Positions 5,512 to 24,104 of a stretch of DNA of 64,000 nt are shown here, piece by piece (position 1 is the first letter of the stretch; every line of letters begins with the position of its first letter). The position numbers were made by a program, and so were the translations under genes. Origin of the DNA: Siphonodentalium dalli (Eukaryota; Mollusca; Scaphopoda; Gadilida; Siphonodentaliidae); NCBI GenBank assembly GCA_032622095.1, contig CP136067.1, forward strand, positions 121,245,030-121,309,029, written 5' to 3'. The notes beneath the pieces were generated by a model. That model was given only the letters and a program-made list of their open reading frames with translations, made no database searches and had not been told where the DNA came from.

Positions 5512-5627
5512 ATGATTGTATCAAACAATCAGACACACAAAATCCAGACATGGCATCATGTGCTGGCAATTCGATATAATTTTTTTGAAAATAACTACTT
5601 TGACCTACATTGTGCCTGTCATTTGCA

Positions 5628-5717
5628 GAATGAGGTTCCCAGATGGTGAATTTGGTGATGCTATTCCACACGGCAGGATAACGTCACCAAATTCACCCTC
5701 TGGGAATCTCATTCTAT
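5628..5717. mobile_element. Foldback MITE fragment of the hairpin family at 7517
   Basis: The arms AGAATGAGGTTCCCAG..GGTGAATTTGGTGATG and CACCAAATTCACCCTCTGGG..CTCATTCT are inverted. The family's outer CAAGCCTTG ends are missing, so this is an internal or truncated copy. Intact copies are at 7517-7663 and 23954-24104. Confidence 0.6.
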
Positions 5718-6450: not shown

Positions 6451-6528
6451 CCTTGTTCCCAGGGGGTGAATTTACTGCTATTGTTGCTACATAATTGAAT
6501 TTCTAACTTTCTATACTTTTAGGTATCT

Positions 6529-6642
6529 ATGATGGTCAAGAAGGGTATTATTTGCTTTAGACTGTTGCTAGTTACACTATGCACAGCCTTGGGAGATGGC
6601 CAGAAGAGGCCTCATATCATCATTATCCTGGCTGATGATTTG
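6529..6642 (+). CDS. ARSB: Sulfatase exon 1 (signal peptide and first metal site)
   Basis: It encodes 38 residues ending in ILADDL, the start of the sulfatase fold with the two metal-binding Asp. The donor is GTAGGT (6643), phase 0. There are two in-frame starts: ATG at 6529 has T at -3, whereas ATG at 6532 has A at -3 and G at +4 and fits the Kozak context better. Either leaves an intact signal peptide. An acceptor-like TTTTAG ends at 6522, so a non-coding leader exon may lie upstream. Confidence 0.88.
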
Positions 6643-9600
6643 GTAGGTCTATATACATGCATATTAACCCTTTGTCGAGTAGAACGACACATATGTCGCC
6701 GTACGGTTTCGCGAGTGGAACAACATCAAATGAGTAGACTAATTAAAAACACGGGAGTCAGAGTTAATTGTGTCTACCTATATGACGTCATCTGAGTGGC
6801 GATGTAAAATGCTGAATCGACATGAACGAGTGAGTGTAAAGGAATTACTGCCGGGCATGTCAATAACATTGTGTATACGTGGTGGATTGTCATCTCCAGG
6901 TGAGTTATCTTCACTTGTGATTTGTCATAAGTGCTGTTTGGAAAGTTTTTGTTTCGACAAAAATATAGAAGTCCGATTGAGGGGGTAGATAACACTAAAT
7001 CTTATAAAATCAAGCCGACATGTGAACTCTATTTGGGTGCGTGTTCACGATGTTGTTTTAATTTTGCATATATATGCTCCGAGTGTCCCGTATATTCACA
7101 ATCATTTTTCGTTCAAATAAAGAGCGTTTAATTTTACGTCGTGCATTTTTACGAATACATAAAATTTCAGTTAAAGTGGGGAGTATATTGATTAATAATT
7201 TAGTAAATATTCGCGATGACAACTATTCTAAGTCGACTCCCCACCTTCCTTCACCATGACTCAATAAAGAGCGTTCCATGTTCAGCTTATTCCTGATATG
7301 GCACGAATAATAAGCGTTTAATAAACCGGAAATTGCTATGACTTTGACGGATATATAAAGCATGTGCATATATATATATATATCGAAAGTTTGTGTACAT
7401 TTATTTACGTGTATTGATGTAATTAGTAAATATTCACGATGACAACTATTCTAAGTCGAGTCCCCATTTTCCTCTACCATTCCTGATATGGTGCGAATAA
7501 AGAGCGTTTGTATATGCAAGCCTTGATATAGTGTGTCTGTCATTTGCAGAATGAGGTCCCCAGAGGGTGAATTTAGTGATGCTACCCCGCATAGCGGGCT
7601 AGAATCACTAAATTCACCCTCTGGGGACCTCATTCTGCAAATGACAGACACTATCAAGGCTTGTGTATATGTGATTACTTATTAAACCGGATTAGTATCC
7701 CTCCTTCAAAAAGTGTTATATATAATTGGATGTTCAAACGAACCACGGCCAACGTTTATATCTTTTATAATGCTATTGTTATGAGTAATTGACACAACGA
7801 GGTTGATAATATATGCCCAAATGCCATATATACACAGATAAACTGGCAAACAGCATAAGGCAGTGACAAATTGGTATAAATTCAAATAATTGTGAGAAGT
7901 CGAAATTGGCTGTCGTTTTGTTTTGATAGTAATGGGAATTCACATAATCGCTACGTCATTGTCAAGTGTTAAATGATGTGACCCCACCGACTGCTGATCA
8001 TGTAACTTCAATCACGTGATTTTGTCTACAACATAAGATCTTTGGCGTTTTTTGGATTTTTTTTCTGTTTGTTATAAATACCAAATTAGCGATCAAACAC
8101 AAGATTATTCGGAAAATTGGACATTTTAATTATATAATATATGTATATTGTAAGAAAATACTAACAAATTTTCAGAATAATATTCCTTTAAGTGCAATTC
8201 GTTTTAATTATGCTTGAGCATAATTCATTTACGCTTAAGCGTAATTCATTTACGCTTAAGCAAGCATAATTCATTTAAGCTTAAGCGTAATTCAATTATG
8301 CTTAAGTGTAGTCGGGTTCATCAGCTATCTTACCTCAGGTATAATCTGATGTAGGTTACTGTCATTAGTAATGTGGTTGCATCCATTTCAGCTTGAGGGG
8401 AGTTCAATGAGAGTATATATGAATTACACTTAAGTATTTCATTTATTATTGAAGTATATGCCGTATGAGTCTTAAATGGTGTTACTTTATTTTATTCCCA
8501 TTTATTATTTCATTTATGCTTAAGCTTAATTCATTTACGCTTAAGTGTAATTAAAATGAATTATGCTTATGCATAAATGAATTACGCTAAAGTGTAAATG
8601 AACATATGGAGTTTGACACTCACGATCCGCATGAATCATGCAGATCCACCAAATCAGAGCACAAGGGCACAATGACAGCTTGCAGATGGCAAAGGAACCT
8701 CTCAATTCGCAGAAGACTCGGCCACTAACTTAGATATATATTCGAAGTTGGTGGTAACGTCGCCTGTGAATTCTGTGAATCACTCGGTTTGCAAGCGAAT
8801 GGTGGAGTGATTTTGTTGTTAATCTCAACATAAAATGACAAAGATATGAGAAGGAACCTTCAACATGGTAGTTGTGATTTACCTGTTCTAATATGGTCAA
8901 GGGAGATATTTCCAATGAAGAAACAATTTGAGTCATACAACAGTAAAATAGTTAACTACTGAAATGCAATGTAATTTGGCAGAACTTCAGATTAAGGCAT
9001 ATGTTTTTATATATATATATATTAGAGCTTCTGTCTCCTATTGCATATTTGTGTAGGAGCTGAGGAACTATGTGTGACTTTAATATTTTGTATATGTTCC
9101 TTTCAGGGATGGAATGATGTGAGCTTTCATGGATCAAATCAAATACCTACTCCAAACATTGACAAATTAGCTAGTCAAGGCATCACACTCAACAACTATT
9201 ATGTGCAAAACATATGTACACCAACTAGGAGTGCGCTGCTCACAGGCCGACATCCCATACACACAGGTAGGCTAGCGATTGGTTGATTTATTGCAATATT
9301 CAATACATAAATAAAAATAAATTAAGGTGGTATGTTGCTGGTGCATAGCTGCTTTCAAGAAATTCTTACCATGAATAATAATATTCAGTTTTAACATCTA
9401 GGACCTCCGCAAGTGTAATATTTGATGGAATAATTATCATCAAATATAATTATTTAATAGTCAGTGGTGAGGTGCACACCCTCAGTTCACTCTCTAGTAG
9501 CCAGTGTACCAGTCTAATAAACCTCAGCTGAAAATCGCCGGGGTTCACTTATTCCCATTAATTCAGTTGTAGTGATTTTCAACTAATACAAACCATTCAA

Positions 9601-12600
9601 AAATTTTATACTCTGAACATCCCTAGAAATTAATGGATAGGAATCCTAGGCTGTTTATTGGAATACATAATGCCAAAGAAAAATAAACATCTGGTTCGTG
9701 TTACATAAATGACAGGAAAAAAAGTTACTAGGCAGGCTTGAATTTTTTTTTATTTTTGACACATTCTTATGGCTTTCGTGTCTTCTGCAAAATTTCTATA
9801 ACATTAATTATTGTTTTGTTTTTCTTTATTTCTGTTATAATAAAGGGTCAGCAGTGTCGATGCCGCGTTGTTAAAAGAAATTAAAATTAAATTCGAAAAG
9901 GGTTAATAACTCCGTAAAAAAAACAATTCCATCATCTATATACATGTTGCACATCTCCAATATGTGGGTAACAATACTCTGAAGTTTCAAAATCTACGAT
10001 CAAAACTGTAGGAGGAGTTGATAACACCATGAAGGTACCCTCATACAGAAAATTCTAAAAAATATTGAAATTTTCTAAGTCGAAAAATAATTGTTCCGTC
10101 ATCTATATACATGTTGCACATCTACAATATATGGGCAACAATATTCTGAAGTTTCAAATCTCTGGGATGAAATCTGTAGGAGGAGATGATTACACGGACG
10201 GAAGAACGGATGGACGGACGGACAGAGCCCGTTTCTATAGTCCCCCAAAAATAAATTTTTCAGGGGACAAAAACAATGCTTTGGCAGATAATGATCCATT
10301 CTGAGATATTGAAAATTGTGTTTTGTTTTTTTTAATAAACATTTTCAGAAAAAGTTCTTGAAAACCATGAAAAAAGTGTAGGGTAATTAAGGGGTTTAAA
10401 ACAGTGTAGGTAGGGAAACCCAAACCACAAATATTTTTTACTTTGGTCTATTGAAAAATTATATAAACTTATATATTGTCAAAGAATTATGTATCTGTTG
10501 CTTCACTTCAGGGTTGCAAGTTGGTGTGATAATTGGCCCTGCGCCATATGGTCTGGGTCTTAACGAAACCATATTTCCACAATACTTGAAACCTTTAGGT
10601 TACAGATCACATATAGTGGGGAAAGTAAGTAATAACCTATTAACTCAGTTGTCAACTTAACCCTTTAACTAACTAAATATTTCAATATTCGCTATTTGAA
10701 TAGATTGTTTGAAGAATCTTTTGAATAAACAGAAAAGGGTTTCGCTGTCTCTTTTATGATCTGAACATTTCTCTATCGTAGAAGATGAATGTCTGCAAAG
10801 TACAATACCCACATGGCTTGATATTATATATATATTATGATATATTGTGGGTGGGCTTCTAAACGGTCGTGCCTGCCATTTTGGCGTGAAACTTTTTATT
10901 GCATTTTCGTAATCTACGGGTTCGGTTACATAAGTTCATCAGATAAAATTGCCAATATTTCAAGTATAAATGCCATTTATCGCTGTTTTTTTCATGGAAA
11001 TTTGTGTTCTAAATTGTCGTATCTGCTATATAAATTACATTTTCGCTGTTTTTTAGTGAAATTTGTGTTCTAAATTGTTGTATTGTAACTATCGTTAATT
11101 CTAAAATGCAATAAATGTTATTTTTGAAACCGTTCCTGGTAGGATAAATCTGATTGGATTATTTTGAAGAAGACTAGCCGGAGGGCGTATCCTCCTTATG
11201 TCGTAAAATGTCATATCTCAGTACAATCTTACAGATTTCTATTTTTCCTTCTGAAGTATCGTAAAAATCATAAAATCATGTTTTCTCACCAACTAGAAGA
11301 TTATTGGATATGAAAGTGTATCTATTATTTTTACATAGCCCATCTCTGTTACACTCAACTTACACTAAATCATGCTTGGTGATTGGTCAACTGCCAATTG
11401 GGTCACCCATTTTACATTCTGCCAATGGCGATATTGTTATGATACTATTAAACTGGTTGGTTTTATTCAATGAAATAAGTCCACAATATGTCTCAGTGTA
11501 GTGTTTTACATCACTTTAATCTTCATCTATTCCAGTGGCATGCACCTAAGCTTCTCTGACTATGATATTAATCTTCATCTATTCCAGTGGCATCTAGGCT
11601 TCTTTGAAAAGGAATACACACCAACATACAGAGGATTTGAATCTCACTTTGGTTACTGGCTCGGTGAAGAAGATTATTTCAGTCATTTCTCAAGTGCAGA
11701 TGTGAGTTTATGTGATGTTTATCATCATGGCTAAAGGATGATGTAGGTGTGTTCTACGTATTCTCATTTGTGGATGTCAATGGCCCAGTGGTGAGAGCAA
11801 GTCTGTAAAACCATCACCGCTAAGAAGAATACAGAAAAAAATAGATAGACTTTATTTCTTATTTATATTATTGATAACTCTCCAGTGATGAGATTTCACA
11901 TGTTGAAACCATTGTTATGTAAACTTTTTTATTATCCATCCCTTAACTAACACTATTTCTGATTGGGCAAAAGCCGCCACATGATAATCCGGGAAAAAGT
12001 CATATTGGACTCCCGAATGTCATAATGGACTCCCAAGTGTGCAATATGACTTTTTATCGGGACTCTGTGATGTCACGAATTAACTCTATTGTGAAATGAA
12101 TCGGTGAAATTGTGATGCGCGCAACACTGGTGGATTTAGCAGACGTTTCACTTCCGCATTGAGTATTTTTTCACTTCCGTGTTTACTCTTCCAAATCATG
12201 CTTTCTGATGATCAAAATACAGGCTTTTATAAAGAATTAAGTGCCGTCAAATACCAAAAATAACCACAAAAGTTTTATTCCCAAAATTTGGATAAACATA
12301 CAGATGGATAATAAAAATGCCATTATACAATGTTGTGTAATAACTTTATACTGTTACAACAAAAGTAATTGTACCAACAAACTTCACCATATGTAACTGG
12401 AAATGAAATGTTTAAGTTGAAAATCTGTGTTTTATTGAATATATTTCATTGCTCTGATCATTTGTAATGTAGATTTCCTGATTTGATCAAAATTTGCTCA
12501 ACTGGTTGTTGATAAAATGGTAGGCAAAGGTTTTAACATGCGGTGTCTCATCATTGAAGTAATATCAATAACAGATATAAGAATATGTCTATCTATTTTT

Positions 12601-15600
12601 CTGTGTTCTTCTTAGTGACAATGGTTGTACAATCTTTGATTACAAGTGATTCCTCTGGTATCGATACTATGGGACCAAGTTAGTATAGTCACTTCAAGAA
12701 TGTATCATTCAACTAATATTTTGAAAAACGTCAAATAAGGCCAAATAAATAAAACTTCTGTGTTCTCAGACACCTTCCACGTTACTGAAATTTTCTTTTA
12801 AAAACCCTGTCAAACAATTTTTGTCAAAATTTTCTGTTTATCAACGAAAATGAATTTTTGTTTGTTTGTTGAGAAAACAATAAATATAATTAGCCTCCCT
12901 CCCCATCCCTAGGATATAGTAATGGGTTCCGTCCGTCTGTCCGGCTGTCCGTCCCGAATTTGTAAGAGTCATAACTTGAACAAATGTAAATGGATTTCAA
13001 AGATTTGTGGTATATGAGTTCACCTGACCATTACCTAGAATGAGTTCGCAAGCCAGATCTGGCCAGATATTTTTACCGGAGTTATTGGACTTTGTTTATT
13101 ATTTTTGTCGAATTTACCAAATAGCAAATAGACGACGTCCCAGGGCTCGTTTCCACAAATCTCAGTATCTCACCGGATTTCTAAGATATTTGGTATATGA
13201 GTTCACCTGACCATTGCCTAGAATGAGTTCGCAAGCCAGGTCTGGCCGGTTATTTTTACCGGAGTTATTGGACTTTGTTTATTATTTTTGACAAATTTAC
13301 CAAATAGCAAATAGATGACGTCCCAGGGCTCATTTCCACAAATGTCAATGGATTTCAAAGATGTTTGGTATATGAGTTCACATGACCAGTATCTAGAACG
13401 AGTTCGCAAACCAGGTCCGCCCAGATATTTTCAGCAGAGTTATTGGACTTTGTTTATTTTTTTGTGTGCAAATGGACGACGTCACAGGGCTCATTTCCAC
13501 AAATGTCAACGGATTTAAAAGATTTTTGGTATATGAGTTCACATGACCAGTATCTAGAACGAGTTCGCAAACCAGGTCCGGCCGTTTCGGCAGAGTTATT
13601 GGACTTTGTTTATTTTTTTTTGGTGCAAATGGACGACGTCACAGGGCTAATTTCCACGAATGTCAAGTTGTTACATTGTCAACGGATTAAAAAGATTTTT
13701 GGTATATTCGTTCCCATGACCAGTACCTAAAATGAGTTCGCAAGCCAGGCTTTTTGACAAAATCCCACCTCTTGTTTAGCACATACTGAGATCGCAAACA
13801 TTATTGAGAATGCACTTCCCCAACTGCACAATTCGGCGGGGGATACCGCCATCTGCGACTGCTTTTTGTTTTAATGGCCTTACATACATTGCACCATTTG
13901 AAAAGACAATGCCTGAACTGCATAGAAATGTAGATGTGTATACTTCATTTCGTCATGGAATTAACAATTCAGACCATAAATGAAAACAACAGAAACTGCT
14001 GGGATAAATGAAATATATTTTTTGCAGCCGACTTTAAAATATTATGGTCTGGACTTTCGGAGAAATATGGAAGTTGCGTATAACTACAGCAACCAATATT
14101 CAACCGAGCTGTATGCATCAGAAGCACAGAGGATCATAAATGAGCACAACGAATCAGAGGTTGGTGGTTTAGGCATCGAAAATTTTATTAGTTGGTTTAC
14201 GCATATCAGGGATAAAATCTCTTTTATGGAGGAAGGGGGAAAACATCATGTCTTGACATTCTGATTACATTTGAATTTATTTGCATTCTCGGTAAAAACG
14301 TTGTCGGTGTGTTCGTAAATCAACTGATTAAGGGCACGGATGGCCTTCGTGGTGGGTATTGCTGATAAAATAGTCACATCCATAAAAATGGCCATAAACA
14401 GAAAGAATATTAAAGTATAGACAGACTGATACCAATCATAGATATCGCGTAAATGGTATTTTATTGTCAAGTTGGTACAAAAGTCAAAAATGTTTCAGAA
14501 CCTGGCTTTTGTTTACATAACACAGCTGACAATTAGAGCTGAAACGGTTAGACGGATAGAATCCGGTTATCGACGTAACCGGTTAGAAAAAAATGAACCG
14601 GACGTAACCGCATCCCGTTGTCAGTTGAATGTGAACGTGAATAATCCTCAAAATATTAGGTTAAATGATGCAAAACTAATACTAAATCCTGTGTCACCGA
14701 TAGTAGAGTGCAATGCAAGCATTAATTGGTACACGCGGTAGTATCAGATACTTAGTAGCAATTCTCGAACTGTCTGGAAGTGTCGGCGACCTTCAATCAA
14801 TTCCGACCCTTTGAAGTTTTCTCTGATCTTCCGACAAAAGCACGTGTGCAGTCACTGTGTATCAAGTCTGAATGCACACAAGGAAGTGACAACGTAACAG
14901 TGGCGTTGTGTGGCAATGCGTGCTTTCGTAACAGTGGGGTTTATAAATACTATGTAAGTCGACAAAGTTTGATGATTGAGATCAGCTGCACAATGTCTTC
15001 ACTCTTCCGCGTTCTTCCTCCCTGTTGTGATCTAATATGATCAATTCAATTGAGTGACCAAACAGACATCGTAGTTGAAGCAACCCAAAACCTCTTTAAC
15101 TTCTTCAATGATCTTCCCTTTTATCAAGGAAATTGATGCTCCATGCTACTCTGTAACTGGTTGTGCCTGTGGCACTAAATGACACTCAATTTGGCAGTAA
15201 TTTCTATATGTTAAGTGATTGCATACTAAAACCGAAACCGAGGGTTTTTTACCCAAAAAAACGAAACCGAAACGTAAATTCTATAACCTTCCAACACTAG
15301 TGTCCGCGATCATGATACCGACGAATAGCTCGAATACTGAATAGGACTGCGAGTCTGACCTAACTGACCTTCCTTTTTGTTCTATAGTTATTACTTTCTT
15401 GTCTTTATATATAATTCATTGGAGGATATACCAATGATAATGATATATTACAGATCTTTAATATATAGTTTTGTTACTCATTTTACCAATACCCATACTA
15501 TTGTTACTCGTTTTACAAATGCCCAAACATATGCTGATCACGGCAAATAAGCGATCCCCCCTGCCATTCACAAATTTCACTTGCTCACGTCATTCCCCAT

Positions 15601-18600
15601 CACGAGAGCCAGCAAAAGAACAGTGAATGCGTGTTTTTGAATATCGTTAAATGCCGTGAATAAGGTCTTTATTTCAGCTACTATTTCTCACCTAGGTTTG
15701 TCCCTGGAGCATGGCATAATGTCGACATAATTAGTGTGAGAGAAGTCCGCTAGAAATTAGCAGTTAACCGGTTGAAATCCGGCTAACCCCGATGGTTAAA
15801 GGTACTCAATCCGAACAGAGGGTCCCCATCTCAACAGATTCCAACAACAACAATCCGATCAGAGGGTCATATATTACTATTTCTTTGGCTTTGGGGGTAA
15901 ACAATATTTGATTTGAGTCGAGGAACCCATCAAACAAAGCTCAGAGTTATTAGATATTGATTTTTGAAATTTGTTATTTACTCGAGATGAGTACTAATAA
16001 TTGCCTTCAACTGCCCTAATCTGCTCGGGATGTGTACACCAAAATCTATTCAAACAGACAAGGATGGATAACTCTAAAATCAAATGGTAATTTTGACTGA
16101 GTTCTGGGCCAGGAAGTATTCCCGATAATGAAAAATAATAGATTTCTAAAATCGATATCTAACAAATCTGAGCTCTGATGGGTGACTTCCTCGACTCGAA
16201 TCAAATATTTTTGACCCCCAAAGCCATTGAAATAGTAATTGAGAGGAGTTTTATCGGATTGAGTACCTTTAACCGGTTAGAAGAATGGGTCAACCGTTTC
16301 AGCTCTACTGACAATAAAACAAAACAAAGCTGACAATAACATACTATTTTCACAATATTTATGATTGGTATAAGAACAAAATATGTCAATATTTGATCAT
16401 ATTTCCATTTATGTTAGTTTTAATGGGCGTGACACTATTAACAGTATACCCACCTCGAAGGTCATCCATGCCATTAAATTGGTTTCACCTTACTTAGAAG
16501 AAATCAGATGTGAGTTTTAATGGGTGTGACAATATTAATGTGAGTTTTAATGGGTGTGAAATCAGATGTGAGTTTAAATGGGTGTGACAATATTAATAGC
16601 ATACCCACCACGAAGGTCATGTGAGTTTTAATGTGTGTGCCAATATTAATGTGAGTTTTAATCGATATGAAATCAGATGTGAGTTTTAATGGGTGTGACA
16701 ATATTAACAGTATACCCACCACGAAGGTCATATGAGTTTTAATGGGTGTGACTATATTACTGCGAGTTTTAGTGGGTGTGAAATCAGATGTGAGTTTTAA
16801 CGAGTGTGACAATATTAACAGCATACCCACCACGAAGGTCATGTGAGTTTTAATGTGTGTGCCAATATTAATGTGAATTTTAATCGATGTGTGAAATCAG
16901 ATGTGAGTTTTAACGAGTGTGACAATATTAACAGCATACCCACTATGAAGGTCATCCATGCCGTTAAATTGGTTTCACCTTACTTAGAAGAATTCAGATG
17001 TGAGTTTTAATGGGTGTGACAATATTAATGTGAGTTTTAATGGGTGTGAAATCAAATGTAAGTTTTAATGGGTGTGACAATATTAATAGCATACCCGCCA
17101 CAAAGGTCATGTGAGTTTAATGGGTGTGACAATATTAATGTGAGTTTTAATCGATATGAAATCAGATGTGAGTTTTAACGAGTGTGACAATATTAACAGC
17201 ATACCCACTATGCAGGTCATGTGAGTTTTAATGTGTGTGCCAATATTAATGTGAGTTTTAATCGATGTGTGAAATCAGATGTGAGTTTTAACGAGTGTGA
17301 CACTATTAACAGCATACCCACTATGAAGGTCATGTGAGTTTTAATGGCTGTGACAATATTAATGTGAGTTTTAATGAGTGTGAAATCAGATGTGAGTTTT
17401 AACGATTGTGAATATTAACAGCATACCCACCTTGAAAGTCATGTGAGTTTTAATGGGTGTGACTATATTACTGCGAGTTTTAGTGGGTGTGAAATCAGAT
17501 GTGAGTTTTAACGAGTGTGACAATATTAACAGTATACCCACCATGAAGGTCATGTGAGTTTTTATGGGTGTGACAATATTATTATTGTGAGTTTTAATGG
17601 GTGTGAAATCAGATGTGAGTTTTAATGAGTGATAATATTAACAGTATACCCGTCACGAAGGCCATGTGAGTTTTAATGTGTGTGCCAATATTAATGTGAG
17701 TTTTAATCGATGTGTGAAATCAGATGTGAGTTTTAACGAGTGTGACAATATTAACAGCATACCCACTATGAAGGTCATGTGAGTTTTAATGGGTGTGACA
17801 ATATTAATGTGAGTTTTAATGGGTGTGAAATCAGATGTGAGTTTTAACGATTGTGAATATTAACAGCATACCCACCTTGAAAGTCATGTGAGTTTTAATG
17901 GGTGTGACTATATTACCGAGAGTTTTAGTGGGTGTGAAATCAGATGTGAGTTTTAACGAGTGTGACAATATTAACAGTATACCCACCATGAAGGTCATGT
18001 GAGTTTTAATGGGTGTGACAATATTATTATTGTGAGTTTTAATGGGTGTGAAATCAGATGTGAGTTTTAATGAGTGATAATATTAACAGTATACCCGTCA
18101 CGAAGGCCATGTGAGTTTTAATGGGTGTGACAATATTAATGTGAGTTTTAATGGGTGTGAAATCAGATGTGAGTTTCAATGAGTGTGACAATATTAACAG
18201 TAGACACACCACGAAGGTCAACCATGCCGATAAATTGGTTTCACCTTACTTACAAAAAATCAAATCTGAATTTGGTCTAATGTTTTTGTCAGAGTTATGG
18301 CCATTTTCATCTTAATATACTCTCAATAATTGTTTTCTGGATAATAACTAGTTATAGTTCCTGATCAATTTGATATTCTGGAAACATGTGATGCACTTTT
18401 GGCAGTTGTGAAATGATATACATATTTTTTACAGCCCCTGTTCCTATATCTCCCATTCCAAGCAGTCCACTCAGGAAACACAGAATCAGACCCACTTCAG
18501 GCACCGCAGAGATATGTGGACAGATTTCCTTGGATTAAGAATGTGAAGAGGAGAATTTTTGCAGGTATATATATCAGATCTATGAAGACACGGACTCAGT

Positions 18601-21600
18601 ATGAGGGATCATTGCTTCAAATGTTCTTGCTTCAGTGAGTGTGAACAAATTCTCATTTTTTATCAAAATGGTCGTGTATTGATCAGAACTCAGATCAAGC
18701 TTGAAAATCAGTCCCATTTTTTGGCCATGTCGAGGTTCTAACCCGTGCCAACCTCATCTAGCCCAGACTTCGATTATCTTATGCATGACCTAACCACCTT
18801 GACTACAGGGACATCCTTAAAAGGAAACCTTTTCCTCGATAGTTGGGAAGTGTATCAGTCTGAACATGGTTTTGAATATTGACACAAAACGGATCTTGCA
18901 TTGTATTGGTACAGCACAATGAACTTCCTCTGAAATTGTATCTGTGACCATACGATTAATGTTACTGGCATATATGGCCCTTTGACAAAGAGGGGAAATC
19001 CCTGTTGCAAATATCTGGGGGCAATTCCATTCATAACGCTGGGGTACAATGGGTAAATTACTCTGGGCAAAAGTGAATGGAATGATTTTTGGTGACCAGA
19101 GAAATCTAAAAACAGCACAGTTACAACTGCAAACAAATCATAACTTTTTATTGAGGAAATTTGACAAAACTCACATTGGGCGTGTCGAACAGATGAAGAC
19201 TTAAGTAAATGAGCAAAAAAAATATCTGATATTCAAAATGAAACTAACAAGAATTTTGACTTTTATCGAACAAGAAAAATACCTAATTTTAGAACAAAAA
19301 TTAGAAGTATCTAAAACTTTGGATACATAATTTTAACTGTCATCAATTCGAATTCTATATATATCAGAATTATATATTATATAATCATGATAAATTATAC
19401 AAAATAAAATTCATTTAATCTATTACATAAATATTTTCCATGTGCTTTCTCAGTTGACAACCGATCTTCGCACGGAAAGTGATGTCACATTACAATACTC
19501 TCGCAGTTACACCACCTCGGCTGTTGTGAGCACAGCCTGGTGTATTTACGCCTGGTCATTCCATTCATTGCCCATTGTAATATCATTACCCATTGTAGCC
19601 GAACATAATGAATGGAATTGCCCCCAGGTAGTATTACTTAATCAGGACCTAATTTATAAATATGAAATGCTTATTTAATTAACCATTTCTTTACTGAATG
19701 AATTTTCCCGTTTAGTTATAAATATACAATAGATTGTTCTATTATTCCTTCGGAGGGATGTTCAGAAAATATAAGCAGATGACAGACAGATGAACAGATA
19801 ATACAATTGCAAAAAGGTATCTTATTCTTTGATAGGAAAATAGGAAATGTGCAGATAATATGTTCAACCTACAAAATTATGTGGCCGTTTGTTGAAGTTA
19901 TTATCTGAACATTTGCTAAGGGAACTAACTACTTGTCAATGAGTCTTTATTAAAGAAAGGGTTAAGCTTCAAACTAAACTAAATAAAGCTTTCTTGTCTG
20001 ATGTTTCGGGGATAGGTAGTTTAAATACCTTTAAATAGCTTTATACAGACTTTCTATGCTTCAGAAAAACATTTTAAAGTCATATAAGTGTCAGTACAAC
20101 AACAATGGTTTTGACATGTGAGATCTCGTTATTGAGAGTTACGGATGATGAAATTAGAACAAAGTCAATCTATTTTAACATGTACTTGTGGAGGATATTT
20201 TTTTTACAGACGTTTATTTAAAATTGATTTTATGTTGCATGATCCCACTTTGAAGGCTTTGTGGGACACTTTCAATCACACAAATAAAGAAATGTCAAAA
20301 TCTGTATGAAAACAAAACTGGCTGCCTATATATCTATATATATAGATACTATATGCACCATCAGACCTGTTTACTTTCCCGATTTCGGCGGGAGTCTCCC
20401 GATTTTGTGTCATTTCTCATGTGCTCCCAAATCGGGAAACCAAATCTCCCGATTTCAAAAGCTGAACCCCAAATTAGCCGACGGCTGTAACAAGCGTTAA
20501 GCCATGCACGCTATAGTGTTACAAATCAATTATGAATATATCGCCTGCGAGTCAAACAGTGACAAAATGTTGACTCCAGATTTTTCACTAAATCTCCCTC
20601 TTTCTGAGCACAAATCTCCAGATTTCCAATTTTAAAAGTAAACAGGTCTGTGCACCATAGTTTTCTATTTTCCACAGGTATGGTGGGAGCTCTAGACGAG
20701 GCTGTTGGGAATATCACAGATACCCTCAGAAAACGAGGAATGTTAGATAACTCTATCATTCTTTTCTCCACTGACAATGGCGGTCCTTCGAATGGTTTCG
20801 ATGCTAATGCTGCTAGCAACTACCCTCTGAGGTGAATAACTCTATCGGGAATCGGAACTGTCGCATACTACAATTTAGCATCAAATTAATATTTTTCCAG
20901 AACCATAGCAAATTTAAATCTCGTATGTTTCATTATTTTATTTTTATTCTCTGATGGAAATTTGAAGACAGATGTTTGCTTCCGGGCTACCGTTACAACA
21001 ACAACATAATTTGTATAAATCCCGATTTCAAGACAACAGTGTGATTACGTAAATAATAAAGGACCATCGACTGTTGGTTATTTGTAAAGAATTTGGAGAC
21101 AGTAAACCATATGTTGACAGGCACCATTCTGAAATGACCAGCACCATCCATTTGGTGCCTGTTATTTTGAATGGGAGTCAAAAAAGATTATTTTGAGCCT
21201 TGTTGATGATCACTTCTGCTGTAGTTGTCTGAATGATCTAAAACCTGATACGTGGATCATTGAAAATAAGTGTGAAGTTCAGGGCATATATTTCATCTGT
21301 TTTTGCGAGAATCCAAACATACTTTTTCGCGAGAATCCAGGGTAATTTGCGAGAATATTTACGAGAATCTAGATTTGGATTCTCGCCGAAATACAGTAAT
21401 GCTCTAATTAATCGACCTCTTAACCACAGCAGAATTATGGGTAACTTTTCAGGATTTAGTCGGAAATATGGCTTGTTGCCATCCATCGGAAAGCTCTCGT
21501 CGAGAGCTTTCCAATGAATGGCAACAAGCCATATTTCCGACTATATCCTGAAAAGTTACCCATAATTCTGCTGTGGTTAAGAGGTTGATTAATTAGAGCA

Positions 21601-23937
21601 TTACTGTATAAGCCCTGTGAAGTTTGAATATGACTTCAGTTTCATGATTGTTGTTATGCTAATTTTTTATCGAGTTTAAAACAAAAAATCAACTTATGCT
21701 TTGACGAGGGCGGTTGGTGGGAGGGCGTCTGTACGGGTGGTCTGTTGTAACAATATCTCAAAGAAATTTGAAAACCAGGTCTGTCCAATCTTTTATACTA
21801 GAGCGGGACTTTGTCTATTTTTTTAATGATTTTGATCCTTACCCTTAGCAACATAACGCAAACAAACTTAGACAGATTTCAACGATATTTGGTATATGAG
21901 TCTTGGATCACCTCCAGATGGGAGATAGCTCAACAAAAGCACATATCTGCTTGCTGCTAAATCCTCTTCCCCTTTTCTATTCTACTCATGTTTCCATCAT
22001 CTAAATGTTGTTCATCATAAATGTAATATTGGGGCTAATAAATATTGTTTAAATCAGATGGGAGCTATCAAATTTGAATGATTTTTTATGAATTTAATGA
22101 TGGTGTCCCGCATAGCGCGCTAGCATCACCAAATTTACCCTCTGGGGACCACATTCTGCTTAGGCCTCATCTTCTGGGAGTGTCTATAGATATCTCAAAT
22201 TAATATTAGTTTTAGTTTCTTTTTCTGTTCTGTACAGTTTCCATATTAGTCGTAATTCTCAGAAAAGACATTTCTAGAAGCATTTCCGCGGAAAATTGTC
22301 AAACCAACTTTTTTACCATAATTCGAAGGTGCCGAACACGAATAGACTGCCTATCGCCCGATTGGATGAACATAGGGTTCAATAAAAAGCTTTTAAAATC
22401 TTCGTGTTTTCTTCGCTGGAGGTTTGTTGATACGGCGCACCGTACAATATCATATGAAATCACGTAACTGGCCTTGAACTTACTCAAGCTTATATACTCC
22501 TCGCGGAACGTTCAAAGCCGCGTTGTATCATGATACTATCATCACAGTAATAATTCAGCTATAAGAATTGAATAATTGCCCAAAAATATTGTTAACCATT
22601 GTCAACTATTAGTATAAAATTGGCCGAAATGTGTTATTTATCAACATGCTGTTCGATGAAATTTGGCCTTATTATCAACACAAAGCCTCTTAATTTTAGA
22701 GTTATCCATCTTCATCCACAATTTGGTCTGAGACCGTTGGCTTGTCGACTTTTTACTGGGCCACTAATAAGTCTCGATTGTGAAAAATATTTGATTTCAA
22801 AAATCGATATCTAATAACTCTTGAGGTTCCTCGACTTGAATCAGATATTTTTTACCCCCCTAATCTAAATAAATAGTAATTGAGGGACATTTAACCCTTT
22901 GGCGAGTAGAACCACATATATTTCGCCATACGGTTCGTGAGTGGAATGACAAATATGTCGTTTCAGAAAGTGTCATTTTTATGTAGACACAACTTCAATT
23001 AATCATCTCATTTATAAATGAATTGTATATGAGATATTTTGATTAATATAAAGTCCCAATGTATAAGTGCAAAAGATTATGATAGCACAAGTAAACATAC
23101 ACATCAATTAAATGAATTATTGGATCATTTTGACCAGAATTTGTTAATAATAATTGCTATGACGTTGACGGTAAACTCATTCATGGCGTCATGTATATGA
23201 CGTTATAAATACTCTCCAAAGGGTTAATCGGATTATTCATCTTTAATTTCAGGGGGTTGAAGGCCACACTTTGGGAGGGCGGTATTCGAGGTGATGGCTT
23301 CTTATATAGCTCGCTCCTAAATAAATCTGGATATATATCAGAGCATCTGATTCACGTCTGTGATTGGCTACCTACATTATATAAGGCAGCCGGTGGCGAT
23401 CCAACTTCTCTGAAAAATTTGGACGGATTTGATATGTGGAGCGTTTTATCAAACAATGAAAAGTCAGTTCGAAAGGAGATCTTACACAACATCAACCCAC
23501 GACATAATCTCACAGCTATACGTGTCGGTGACTATAAGCTTGTTCAAGGGGAAATTGGCTATGGCGGCCATAATGATTGGTATCCACCATGGCAAGAAAA
23601 AGAAGATTCAGAAAATTACCATGTGTCAAATCATAAGAAACCATCATCTAATTATGATTATATAGATAGTGAAAAATATACTGTGAAATGTGGCAAGAAA
23701 CCATTCAATGCTTTGACTAATTGTGATCCTAAATCCATTCCATGTCTGTTCCACATTCCATCAGATCCATGCGAGTACCATAACGTAGCTGCCGAAAATC
23801 CAGGTATTGTGAAATCCATTCTAGCACGGTTGGAGGAATACAAAAAAACAATGGTGTCACCTCGAAATAAGCCTTCTGATCCTGAAGCCAGCCCAGCACT
23901 GCATGGCGATGTTTGGATTCCATGGATGAGCAAATAG
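6529..23937 (+). CDS. ARSB: Arylsulfatase B-like sulfatase, complete gene of 8 coding exons
   Basis: Joined exons are 6529-6642, 9107-9266, 10512-10624, 11588-11701, 14028-14159, 18435-18564, 20678-20831 and 23253-23937. All junctions are GT/AG and keep frame, giving 1602 nt and 533 residues including a hydrophobic N-terminal signal (about residues 8-21). Family residues are visible: ADD metal-site Asp36/37; CTPTR with Cys75, the site converted to formylglycine, and Arg79; Lys129 and His131 in GKWHLG; His223 in FQAVHSG; Asp287/Asn288 in STDNGG; Lys309 before LWEGG. The known family hydrolyses sulfate esters, ARSB acting on N-acetylgalactosamine 4-sulfate in lysosomes. A lysosomal or secreted site here is inferred from the signal peptide. 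Paralogues I and J share the same motifs, so the exact subfamily is not settled. Introns are packed with transposons, yet the frame is intact. Confidence 0.93.
6668..6870 (+). mobile_element. TTAA-flanked element, family C, left part
   Basis: TTAA (6664-6667) is followed by CCCTTTGTCGAGTAGAAC, matching the left end of the intact copy at 22895-23223 (CCCTTTGGCGAGTAGAAC). The following AGTGGAACA and GTCTAC segments also match that copy. A right end was not found, so the 3' limit given is approximate and the copy may be truncated. It begins only 25 bp after the exon 1 donor. Confidence 0.55.
7517..7663. mobile_element. hAT-like foldback MITE with 8-bp target duplication
   Basis: This 147-bp near-perfect palindrome starts CAAGCCTTGATA and ends TATCAAGGCTTG. 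It is flanked on both sides by TGTATATG (7509-7516 and 7664-7671). An 8-bp duplication is typical of hAT transposition. The arms carry GAATGAGGTCCCCAGAGGG and its complement. A sister copy with its own duplication is at 23954-24104. Confidence 0.88.
8201..8602. repeat. Clusters of short GCTTAAGC palindromes
   Basis: Repeated variants of TTACGCTTAAGCGTAATTCA occur at 8201-8310 and 8515-8602, separated by about 200 bp of unique sequence. Each unit is itself palindromic. A similar pair lies at 51945-51996. The origin is unknown; it is possibly a palindrome-rich mobile repeat. Confidence 0.65.
9107..9266 (+). CDS. ARSB: Sulfatase exon 2 (formylglycine motif)
   Basis: The acceptor is TTTCAG and the donor GTAGGC, phase 0 in and 1 out. 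It encodes GWNDVSFHG, then [13 protein letters not shown] and the sulfatase signature [12 protein letters not shown]. The Cys (residue 75) is the one modified to formylglycine in this family. The exon continues with HPIHTG, characteristic of the arylsulfatase B/I/J branch. Confidence 0.95.
9267..10511 (+). other. Sulfatase intron 2
   Basis: This 1245-bp intron holds the repeat at 9931-10270; the rest is AT-rich with no further feature seen. Confidence 0.8.
9931..10270 (+). repeat. Interspersed repeat with duplicated CATGTTGCACATCT block (copy 1)
   Basis: Two direct sub-units (about 9935-10050 and 10098-10195) contain ATACATGTTGCACATCT and GTAGGAGGAG(T/A)TGAT. They are followed by an ACGGACGGAC stretch and TTTCTATAGTCCCCC. 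A second copy with the same order lies at 36190-36545. It is non-coding. Confidence 0.65.
10512..10624 (+). CDS. ARSB: Sulfatase exon 3
   Basis: The acceptor is CTTCAG and the donor GTAAGT, phase 1 in and 0 out. It encodes [33 protein letters not shown], matching the PYGLGLNE and Y..H.VGK blocks of arylsulfatase B. Lys129 at the end is an active-site Lys. The WHLG that completes the motif is on the next exon. Confidence 0.93.
10625..11587 (+). other. Sulfatase intron 3
   Basis: This 963-bp AT-rich intron shows no recognised element. Its 3' end carries the duplicated acceptor described separately. Confidence 0.75.
11516..11610 (+). repeat. Tandem duplication of the exon 4 splice acceptor
   Basis: TTAATCTTCATCTATTCCAG, then TGGCAT, occurs twice about 60 bp apart: AG ends near 11535 and at 11587. 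The similarity extends about 15 bp into the exon (CTAAGCTTCTCTGA versus CTAGGCTTCTTTGA). Use of the upstream AG would bring in a TGA after seven codons (WHAPKLL), so only the downstream AG gives the sulfatase frame. The duplication spans the intron-exon boundary. Confidence 0.85.
11588..11701 (+). CDS. ARSB: Sulfatase exon 4 (catalytic His)
   Basis: The acceptor is ATTCCAG (second of two copies) and the donor GTGAGT, phase 0 to 0, 38 codons. It encodes [31 protein letters not shown]. His131 of WHLG is an active-site residue, and RGFDS/RGFESH with a GYW..G..DYF block is typical of the family. Confidence 0.94.
11702..14027 (+). other. Sulfatase intron 4
   Basis: This 2326-bp intron includes an inverted pair GATTATCCATCC-like (about 11930) and GGATAATAAAAATG (about 12305), with a palindromic AAAAAGTCATATTGG segment near 12000-12060. 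That may be a degraded MITE. The ~175-bp tandem array at 12985-13765 is also here. Confidence 0.75.
12985..13765 (+). repeat. Tandem array of ~165-185-bp units in intron 4
   Basis: Four to five units share GGATTTCAAAGAT, GGTATATGAGTTCAC, ATGACCA, GAGTTCGCAAGCCAGG and GAGTTATTGGACTTTGTTTAT. Units start near 12991, 13176, 13349, 13510 and 13685. A GTCCGTCTGTCCGG stretch lies just upstream. A related single copy lies near 21770-21905 in intron 7. Open frames through the units are repeat artefacts. Confidence 0.8.
14028..14159 (+). CDS. ARSB: Sulfatase exon 5
   Basis: The acceptor is TTTTTTGCAG and the donor GTTGGT, phase 0 to 0, 44 codons. It encodes the linker from [10 protein letters not shown] to [19 protein letters not shown]. 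This corresponds to the DFR..G..YSTNIFT..A..LI region of arylsulfatase B, which precedes the strand carrying the active-site His. Confidence 0.88.
14534..16307. mobile_element. hAT-like element, 1774 bp, TIR TAGAGCTGAAACGGTT
   Basis: Inverted ends TAGAGCTGAAACGGTT are flanked by identical 8-bp CTGACAAT (14526-14533 and 16308-16315). Subterminal repeats around AACCGG(TTA) occur near both ends (14568-14600 and 15765-15795). No transposase frame is recognisable, so it is non-autonomous. Removing it and one duplication restores a continuous older sequence. Confidence 0.9.
15800..16268. mobile_element. TTAA-flanked MITE, family A (copy 2), nested in the hAT element
   Basis: It begins AGGTACTCAATCCGA and ends CGGATTGAGTACCT, with TTAA on both sides (15796-15799 and 16269-16272). 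It lies about 40 bp inside the right end of the 14534-16307 element, so it inserted later or was carried with it. The arms are complementary as in copy 1. Confidence 0.8.
16430..18240 (+). repeat. Higher-order minisatellite, ~110-bp repeat made of ~28-bp monomers
   Basis: The basic monomer resembles ATGTGAGTTTTAATGGGTGT and alternates between GACAATATTAA-, GAAATCAG- and AACAGTATACCCACC-type linkers. The landmark ACCCACCACGAAGGTCAT recurs roughly every 105-115 bp, about 15 times. A longer landmark (CATGCCATTAAATTGG, then TTTCACCTTACTTA) appears near 16468, 16957 and 18213 and marks larger blocks. It lies wholly within sulfatase intron 5. An apparent minus-strand reading frame at 16504-16842 is only the repeat translated. 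Confidence 0.9.
18435..18564 (+). CDS. ARSB: Sulfatase exon 6 (substrate-site His)
   Basis: The acceptor is TTTTACAG and the donor GTATAT, phase 0 in and 1 out. It encodes [14 protein letters not shown], equivalent to PLFLYLALQSVHEP of arylsulfatase B, with active-site His223. The segment continues with [24 protein letters not shown], matching the L.VP..Y......I......Y.G region. Confidence 0.93.
19015..19627. mobile_element. 613-bp element with inverted CTGGGGGCAATTCCATTC ends
   Basis: The left end CTGGGGGCAATTCCATTCAT is the complement of the right end ATGAATGGAATTGCCCCCAG, and the next about 60 bp also pair loosely (CAATGGGTAA and its complement). No target duplication was clear. It has no recognisable coding region and is a likely MITE of unknown superfamily. 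Confidence 0.6.
20362..20650. mobile_element. hAT-like MITE, 289 bp, abutting exon 7
   Basis: Perfect 16-bp inverted ends CAGACCTGTTTACTTT are flanked by 8-bp TGCACCAT (20354-20361 and 20651-20658). The inner part has repeated TCTCCCGATTT and CCAGATTT motifs. The right duplication ends 19 bp before the exon 7 boundary. Confidence 0.92.
20678..20831 (+). CDS. ARSB: Sulfatase exon 7 (second metal site)
   Basis: The acceptor is TTTTCCACAG and the donor GTGAAT, phase 1 in and 2 out. It encodes [36 protein letters not shown]. Asp287 and Asn288 of STDNGG are metal ligands in the family. MV..LDEAVGN matches arylsulfatase B closely. Confidence 0.95.
21394..21606. mobile_element. pogo/Tigger-like foldback MITE (copy 1, full length)
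   Basis: This 213-bp palindrome has ends CAGTAATGCTCTAATTAATC and the complement, flanked by TA on both sides (21392-21393 and 21607-21608). The arms carry CCACAGCAGAATTATGGGTA, CAGGATTTAGTC and ATGGCTTGTTGCCA. CAG-starting TIRs with TA target duplications are typical of pogo/Tigger elements. Other copies are at 43983, 47813 and 48582. Confidence 0.85.
22095..22175. mobile_element. Fragment of the GAATGAGGTCC hairpin family
   Basis: It contains ATGGTGTCCCGCATAGCGCG, AGCATCACCAAATTTACCCT and GGGGACCACATTCTGC, then TTAGGCCTCATCTTCTGGGA. That is one arm of the family seen intact at 7517, plus the longer tail seen in the 33451-34740 cluster. Confidence 0.55.
22599..22889. mobile_element. Family-A MITE fragment (copy 3), cut by the family-C insertion
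   Basis: The centre (AAATTTGGCCTTATTATCAAC, TTATTTATCAACATG) matches 44903-45352 in opposite orientation. The right part has GAGGTTCCTCGACT and AGTAATTGAGGGACA, then stops at TTTAA, where the family-C element begins. The expected GGATTGAGTACCT end is missing. Confidence 0.55.
22895..23223. mobile_element. TTAA-flanked (piggyBac-like) MITE, family C, abutting exon 8
   Basis: The ends CCCTTTGGCGAGTA and TACTCTCCAAAGGG are inverted at 13 of 14 positions and flanked by TTAA (22891-22894 and 23224-23227). CCC-starting TIRs with a TTAA duplication are typical of piggyBac. It is 329 bp with no coding capacity. Only 25 bp separate the right TTAA from exon 8. Confidence 0.82.
23253..23937 (+). CDS. 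ARSB: Sulfatase exon 8 (C-terminal region and stop)
   Basis: The acceptor is TTTAATTTCAG, phase 2 in; the stop is TAG at 23935-23937. It encodes [16 protein letters not shown], with Lys309 equivalent to an active-site Lys. [21 protein letters not shown] and EILHNI follow, then the C-terminal domain [10 protein letters not shown]....WYPP, DPCEYHN and GDVWIPWM. These follow the arylsulfatase B order, including the final VW.PWM block. Confidence 0.96.
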
Positions 23938-23953: not shown

Positions 23954-24104
23954 CAAGCCTTGAAATAGTGTGTCTGTCATTTGCAGAATGAGGTTCCCAG
24001 AGGGTGAATTTAGTGATGCTACCCTGCATAGTGGGCTAGCATCACTAAATTCACCCTCTGGGAACCTCATTCTGCAAATGACAGGCTCACTATTTCAAGG
24101 CTTG
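23954..24104. mobile_element. hAT-like foldback MITE in the sulfatase 3' UTR
   Basis: This 151-bp near-perfect palindrome has ends CAAGCCTTGAAATAGTG and its complement, flanked by 8-bp CAGTTAGG (23946-23953 and 24105-24112). It is the same family as 7517-7663. It starts 16 bp after the stop codon, so the mRNA 3' UTR should carry a long hairpin. Confidence 0.92.

Follow-up and report, generated by a model that had tools for sequence, protein, structure and literature searches.

A 289-bp hAT-like MITE was identified in intron 6 of an ARSB-like sulfatase gene of Siphonodentalium dalli, with 27 nt separating it from exon 7. The insertion is real, clean and close to the exon. The explanation that we favor, at a probability of about 0.7, is that the 8-bp target duplication kept the native branch-point zone next to the exon and that A20657 or A20654 is used as the branch point. 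All positions are on the + strand of the window, the 64-kb stretch of DNA that was analysed (64,000 nt, G+C 37%).

Structure of the insertion

The element is non-coding and occupies positions 20362-20650. Its termini (20362-20377 and 20635-20650) are inverted repeats, CAGACCTGTTTACTTT / AAAGTAAACAGGTCTG, that are complementary at 16 of 16 positions, and the 8-mers bordering it on the left (20354-20361) and on the right (20651-20658) are both TGCACCAT, an 8-bp target duplication. A preliminary description of this DNA had placed the element 27 nt before sulfatase exon 7 and this was borne out, but the interval that it had given (20362-20677) is correct for the element start only, as the element stops at 20650 and the remainder consists of the right duplication copy and the 19 nt at 20659-20677. 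The window was scanned for exact inverted ends of 12 bp combined with an exact 8-bp direct duplication around elements of 60-1500 bp. Three such structures were detected in the 64 kb, this element included, and none in 30 first-order Markov simulations.

The element had been described as a hAT MITE. The 8-bp target duplication and the short terminal inverted repeats starting with CAG (CAG...CTG) fit that label, and like the hAT MITEs reported as Mar in Drosophila (PMC3517528) the element is short and non-coding, with inverted ends inside the 5-27 bp range given there for hAT MITEs. In addition, repeated TCCCGATTT / TCCAGATTT motifs in its interior resemble the subterminal repeats that hAT elements carry (PMC10368747). 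The target site fits less well: TGCACCAT has A at position 7 but G at position 2 and AC in the middle, matching neither the hAT pattern nTnnnnAn nor the Buster pattern nnnTAnnn (PMC10368747, PMC3517528), a comparison of one site with patterns that are preferences across many sites. As this single site follows neither published pattern, membership in hAT is likely rather than proven and we use the term hAT-like. Neither a second copy nor a transposase was found within the window. Searching the window by blastn returned self matches, the element's own repeats and otherwise short matches at E 0.051 or worse, and a Pfam search of 7 other ORFs from the window gave no transposase domain, with no match for six and a match below the cut-off for one. 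When viral contigs were scanned for the 16-bp end, seven stretches contained one match each and the paired repeat was present in none of the seven; these matches were taken as chance.

Further repeats were observed in the window. Two near-palindromic fold-back elements at 23954-24104 and 7517-7663 are members of a single family, with 92.7% identity across 151 columns. Both carry an exact 8-bp duplication, and the former is separated from the sulfatase stop codon by 16 bp. Partial relatives of this family are located at 5611-5715, at 22089-22159 and between 33453 and 36717. An additional inverted-end structure (GGGGGCAATTCCATTCAT ... ATGAATGGAATTGCCCCC) at 19017-19625 in intron 6 and a long near-perfect palindrome at 21392-21609 in intron 7, the latter with approximate ends, were spotted by eye.

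The sulfatase gene and exon 7

The sulfatase gene (6532-23937) has eight coding exons at 6532-6642, 9107-9266, 10512-10624, 11588-11701, 14028-14159, 18435-18564, 20678-20831 and 23253-23937, joined across GT-AG introns into an intact frame of 532 aa; an alternative in-frame ATG is present at 6529. The predicted protein contains a Sulfatase domain (Pfam PF00884, 5.9e-51) and its best solved relative is 1fsu, N-acetylgalactosamine-4-sulfatase (E 8.7e-116). Both motifs looked for in a sulfatase were found, the metal motif as STDNGG and CxPxR as CTPTR, the latter at the sulfatase active-site position. The domain is shared with human arylsulfatase B (1fsu), with DDLGWNDV and FSTDNGG aligned, while the predicted protein differs from it in weak C-terminal similarity (0.9 and 24.3 bits) and in six additional residues in exon 6.

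Exon 7 (154 nt) encodes FSTDNGG. Both the gene model and the 1fsu alignment agree with the earlier statement that this exon is in frame and encodes STDNGG. The alignment to ARSB is free of gaps across the exon 6/7 junction, and therefore the acceptor at 20676-20677 yields the expected protein. Because the exon encodes STDNGG and omission of its 154 nt would disrupt the reading frame, exon 7 is expected to be correctly spliced.

Two other features of this gene bear splice-site-like sequence. The exon 4 acceptor with the first exon bases (CTTCATCTATTCCAG|TGGCAT) is present twice within 11521-11593, 52 bp apart, and reading on from the upstream copy leads to a stop after 7 codons. Intron 5 contains a tandem array at 16400-18230 with a unit of about 111 bp, which holds 39 of the 50 + strand GTGAGT motifs of the window and thus many donor-like sites.

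Host sequence retained beside the exon

Because a target duplication leaves the host 8-mer on both flanks, the 27 nt beside the exon (20651-20677) are the pre-insertion end of intron 6, barring later mutation. The right duplication copy spans -27 to -20 relative to exon 7, within the usual branch-point zone, as branch points are mostly reported 18-37 nt upstream of the acceptor (PMC8531310). All intron sequence upstream of -27 was displaced. The claim that the element replaces the branch-point region was therefore unsupported, since the 27 nt next to the exon lost no host sequence to the element and the 8 bp at -27 to -20 were duplicated instead. Similarly, the 19 nt described as neither element nor duplication are correctly counted if the AG is included (20659-20677), but this figure understates the native sequence, of which 27 nt were kept.

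The native stretch 20659-20677 includes the polypyrimidine tract and the CAG acceptor, and begins with the AG of a TAG (20659-20660, -19/-18) that restricts where the branch point can lie. According to published work splicing takes the nearest AG 3' of the branch point, except that AGs less than 12-15 nt away can be bypassed (PMC1431707). An AG at -12 to -25 is in itself common, being reported for 10,330 of 49,876 human introns, and where present it speaks against a branch point far upstream (PMC1431707). A YAG beyond BP+8 was reported in 0.28% of human introns (PMC10655562), and new AGs in the acceptor-proximal zone are often used or trigger skipping (PMC7317903). Use of the TAG itself as acceptor would add 17 nt, shift the frame and reach a stop after 11 codons.

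Adenines were scored with a matrix built from published bovine proportions (PMC8531310), whose classes were divided evenly by us. Whether the bypass limit was set to 8, 12 or 15 nt, one and the same set of three adenines was permitted for exon 7, A20657 (-0.69), A20654 (-4.18) and A20659 (-5.4), under AG rules and a matrix that are vertebrate-derived and may not be those of the host. A20657 at -21 and A20654 at -24 both lie within the right duplication copy. No adenine of the element passed the AG-exclusion rule at any of the three limits. For the empty site, the top permitted adenine at a limit of 8 was the A at -21, which tied with an A at -30 at limits of 12 and 15. The insertion may have cost the intron an older branch point at -30, though this need not be assumed.

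The permitted adenines of exon 7 are weak motifs. A permitted TNA motif was found at all seven other acceptors of the gene, including an inferred non-coding one at 6521-6522, making exon 7 the only acceptor of eight to lack one, both before and after insertion. Among the other AGs in the introns of this gene, 430 of 667 have such a motif too, and for this reason its lack at exon 7 is unremarkable.

Predicted RNA folding and alternative explanations

All folding was prediction for naked RNA. The inverted ends were predicted to pair with a mean pair probability of 0.946-0.976 across four fold contexts, and the element alone folded at -84.6 kcal/mol as compared to a mean of -53.8 (sd 9.1) for 100 simulated sequences. 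Predictions beside the exon are unreliable because the real acceptor A20676 was itself paired in some contexts (unpaired probability 0.00-0.85). A20657 likewise ranged from 0.03 to 0.87 unpaired between contexts, and A20654 was predicted unpaired at 0.63-0.93 in seven of eight contexts and at 0.07 in the remaining one. G20660 of the limiting TAG was predicted paired in all four of a further set of contexts (unpaired 0.02-0.10). Such pairing could let the TAG be skipped, in which case the AG rule would fail at exon 7; 44.4% of the AGs between human branch point and acceptor were reported as potentially hidden by pairing (PMC10655562). An AG within the terminal repeat (20644-20645, predicted unpaired probability 0.00) was ruled out as a used acceptor, as it is paired in the predicted stem and no pyrimidine tract precedes it.

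The preliminary description had put the branch point probably in transposon or target-duplication sequence. Our analysis points to the duplication as the probable location (A20657, A20654), with the element disfavored by the TAG at 20659-20660. A branch point supplied by the right end of the transposon, with the TAG at -19 skipped, is unlikely even though A20635 (-43, score 4.09), A20634 (-44, 2.87) and A20641 (-37, 2.84), each with T at -2, were the three highest-scoring of the adenines up to 60 nt from the acceptor. The predicted pairing of G20660 and the open prediction for A20634 (unpaired 0.99) are consistent with this reading, but all three adenines sit 18-25 nt before the TAG, beyond the published bypass distances (PMC1431707, PMC10655562), and two of them are further disfavored by the predicted inverted-end stem (A20641 paired at about 1.00, A20635 at about 0.77 with 0.23 unpaired). 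URA motifs that a MIR insertion brought into OGDH minigenes, which were followed by AGs and had no U-rich tracts, yielded no lariats that could be detected (PMC7969005). The stem might instead loop the element out so that an upstream pre-insertion branch point is still used, for example A20351, which lies at -30 in the empty site. In 300 sampled structures the path from A20351 to the exon had a median of 32 steps as compared to 327 nt of linear sequence, with the predicted stem closing the element, and hairpins in yeast are reported to shorten the distance from branch point to acceptor and to conceal cryptic acceptors (PMC12350175). A20351, however, was predicted paired (unpaired 0.01), its motif is no better than that of A20657 (both -0.69) and several AGs lie between it and the acceptor. 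A branch point looped across in this way would be possible though unneeded, and we regard it as very unlikely.

The element also contains a candidate cryptic acceptor, ACTAAATCTCCCTCTTTCTGAG (20587-20608), ending in GAG at 20607-20608. Its use would add 69 nt, or 23 codons before GMV, in frame and without a stop, giving a minor isoform that could coexist with whichever of the proposed branch points serves the main one. Pyrimidines occupy 13 of 16 positions and branch motifs precede it at -18 (actaAat), -22 (tttcAct) and -36 (gttgAct), but the GAG was predicted paired (unpaired 0.05-0.06) and the insert would interrupt the region aligned without gaps to ARSB. A GAG followed by C makes a poor acceptor. 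By our reckoning 69 open in-frame nt arise by chance roughly one time in ten, and so do not argue for use; we consider such an isoform unlikely. It also appears improbable that these possibilities act together, with a stem that hides the AGs of the MITE and draws upstream sequence near the exon, a transposon-borne or looped-across branch point, and occasional production of the 23-codon isoform.

Discussion

The sequence shows the insertion, the duplication and the intact gene; from these we infer the branch point and the splicing outcome of the favored explanation, in which the native branch zone was retained through the duplication. A hAT-like MITE landed 27 nt upstream of exon 7 by an 8-bp staggered insertion, leaving the exact host 8-mer on the exon side and the branch zone, polypyrimidine tract and AG as they were before. 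U2 snRNP would most likely use A20657 (-21) or A20654 (-24), both available before the insertion, and splicing would proceed to the acceptor at 20676-20677. The element would probably fold with its inverted ends paired into a closing stem and be removed with the lariat. This would most likely make it an ordinary tolerated insertion, neutral for splicing since the duplication preserved the native branch zone.

Gain or loss of branch points through transposable elements has been described previously (PMC7969005, PMC6822395). As here, the OGDH/MIR minigenes (PMC7969005) and the BLOC1S2 MIR-AluSp case (PMC6822395) involve a transposable element near a 3' splice site; in contrast to both, the sulfatase gene kept the final 27 nt of its intron 6 and the branch point is probably outside the element. 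We found no account of this exact arrangement in the literature consulted on transposons or MITEs and branch points, AG exclusion, RNA secondary structure, hAT MITEs of molluscs, hAT target sites, target duplications and the spacing between elements and splice sites, which does not prove that none exists. The retention of host bases on the exon side suggests why target-duplicating elements can be tolerated very near acceptors. If the branch point were in the element after all, the gene would offer a clean natural example of splicing supplied by a transposon, and in an exon indispensable to the enzyme.
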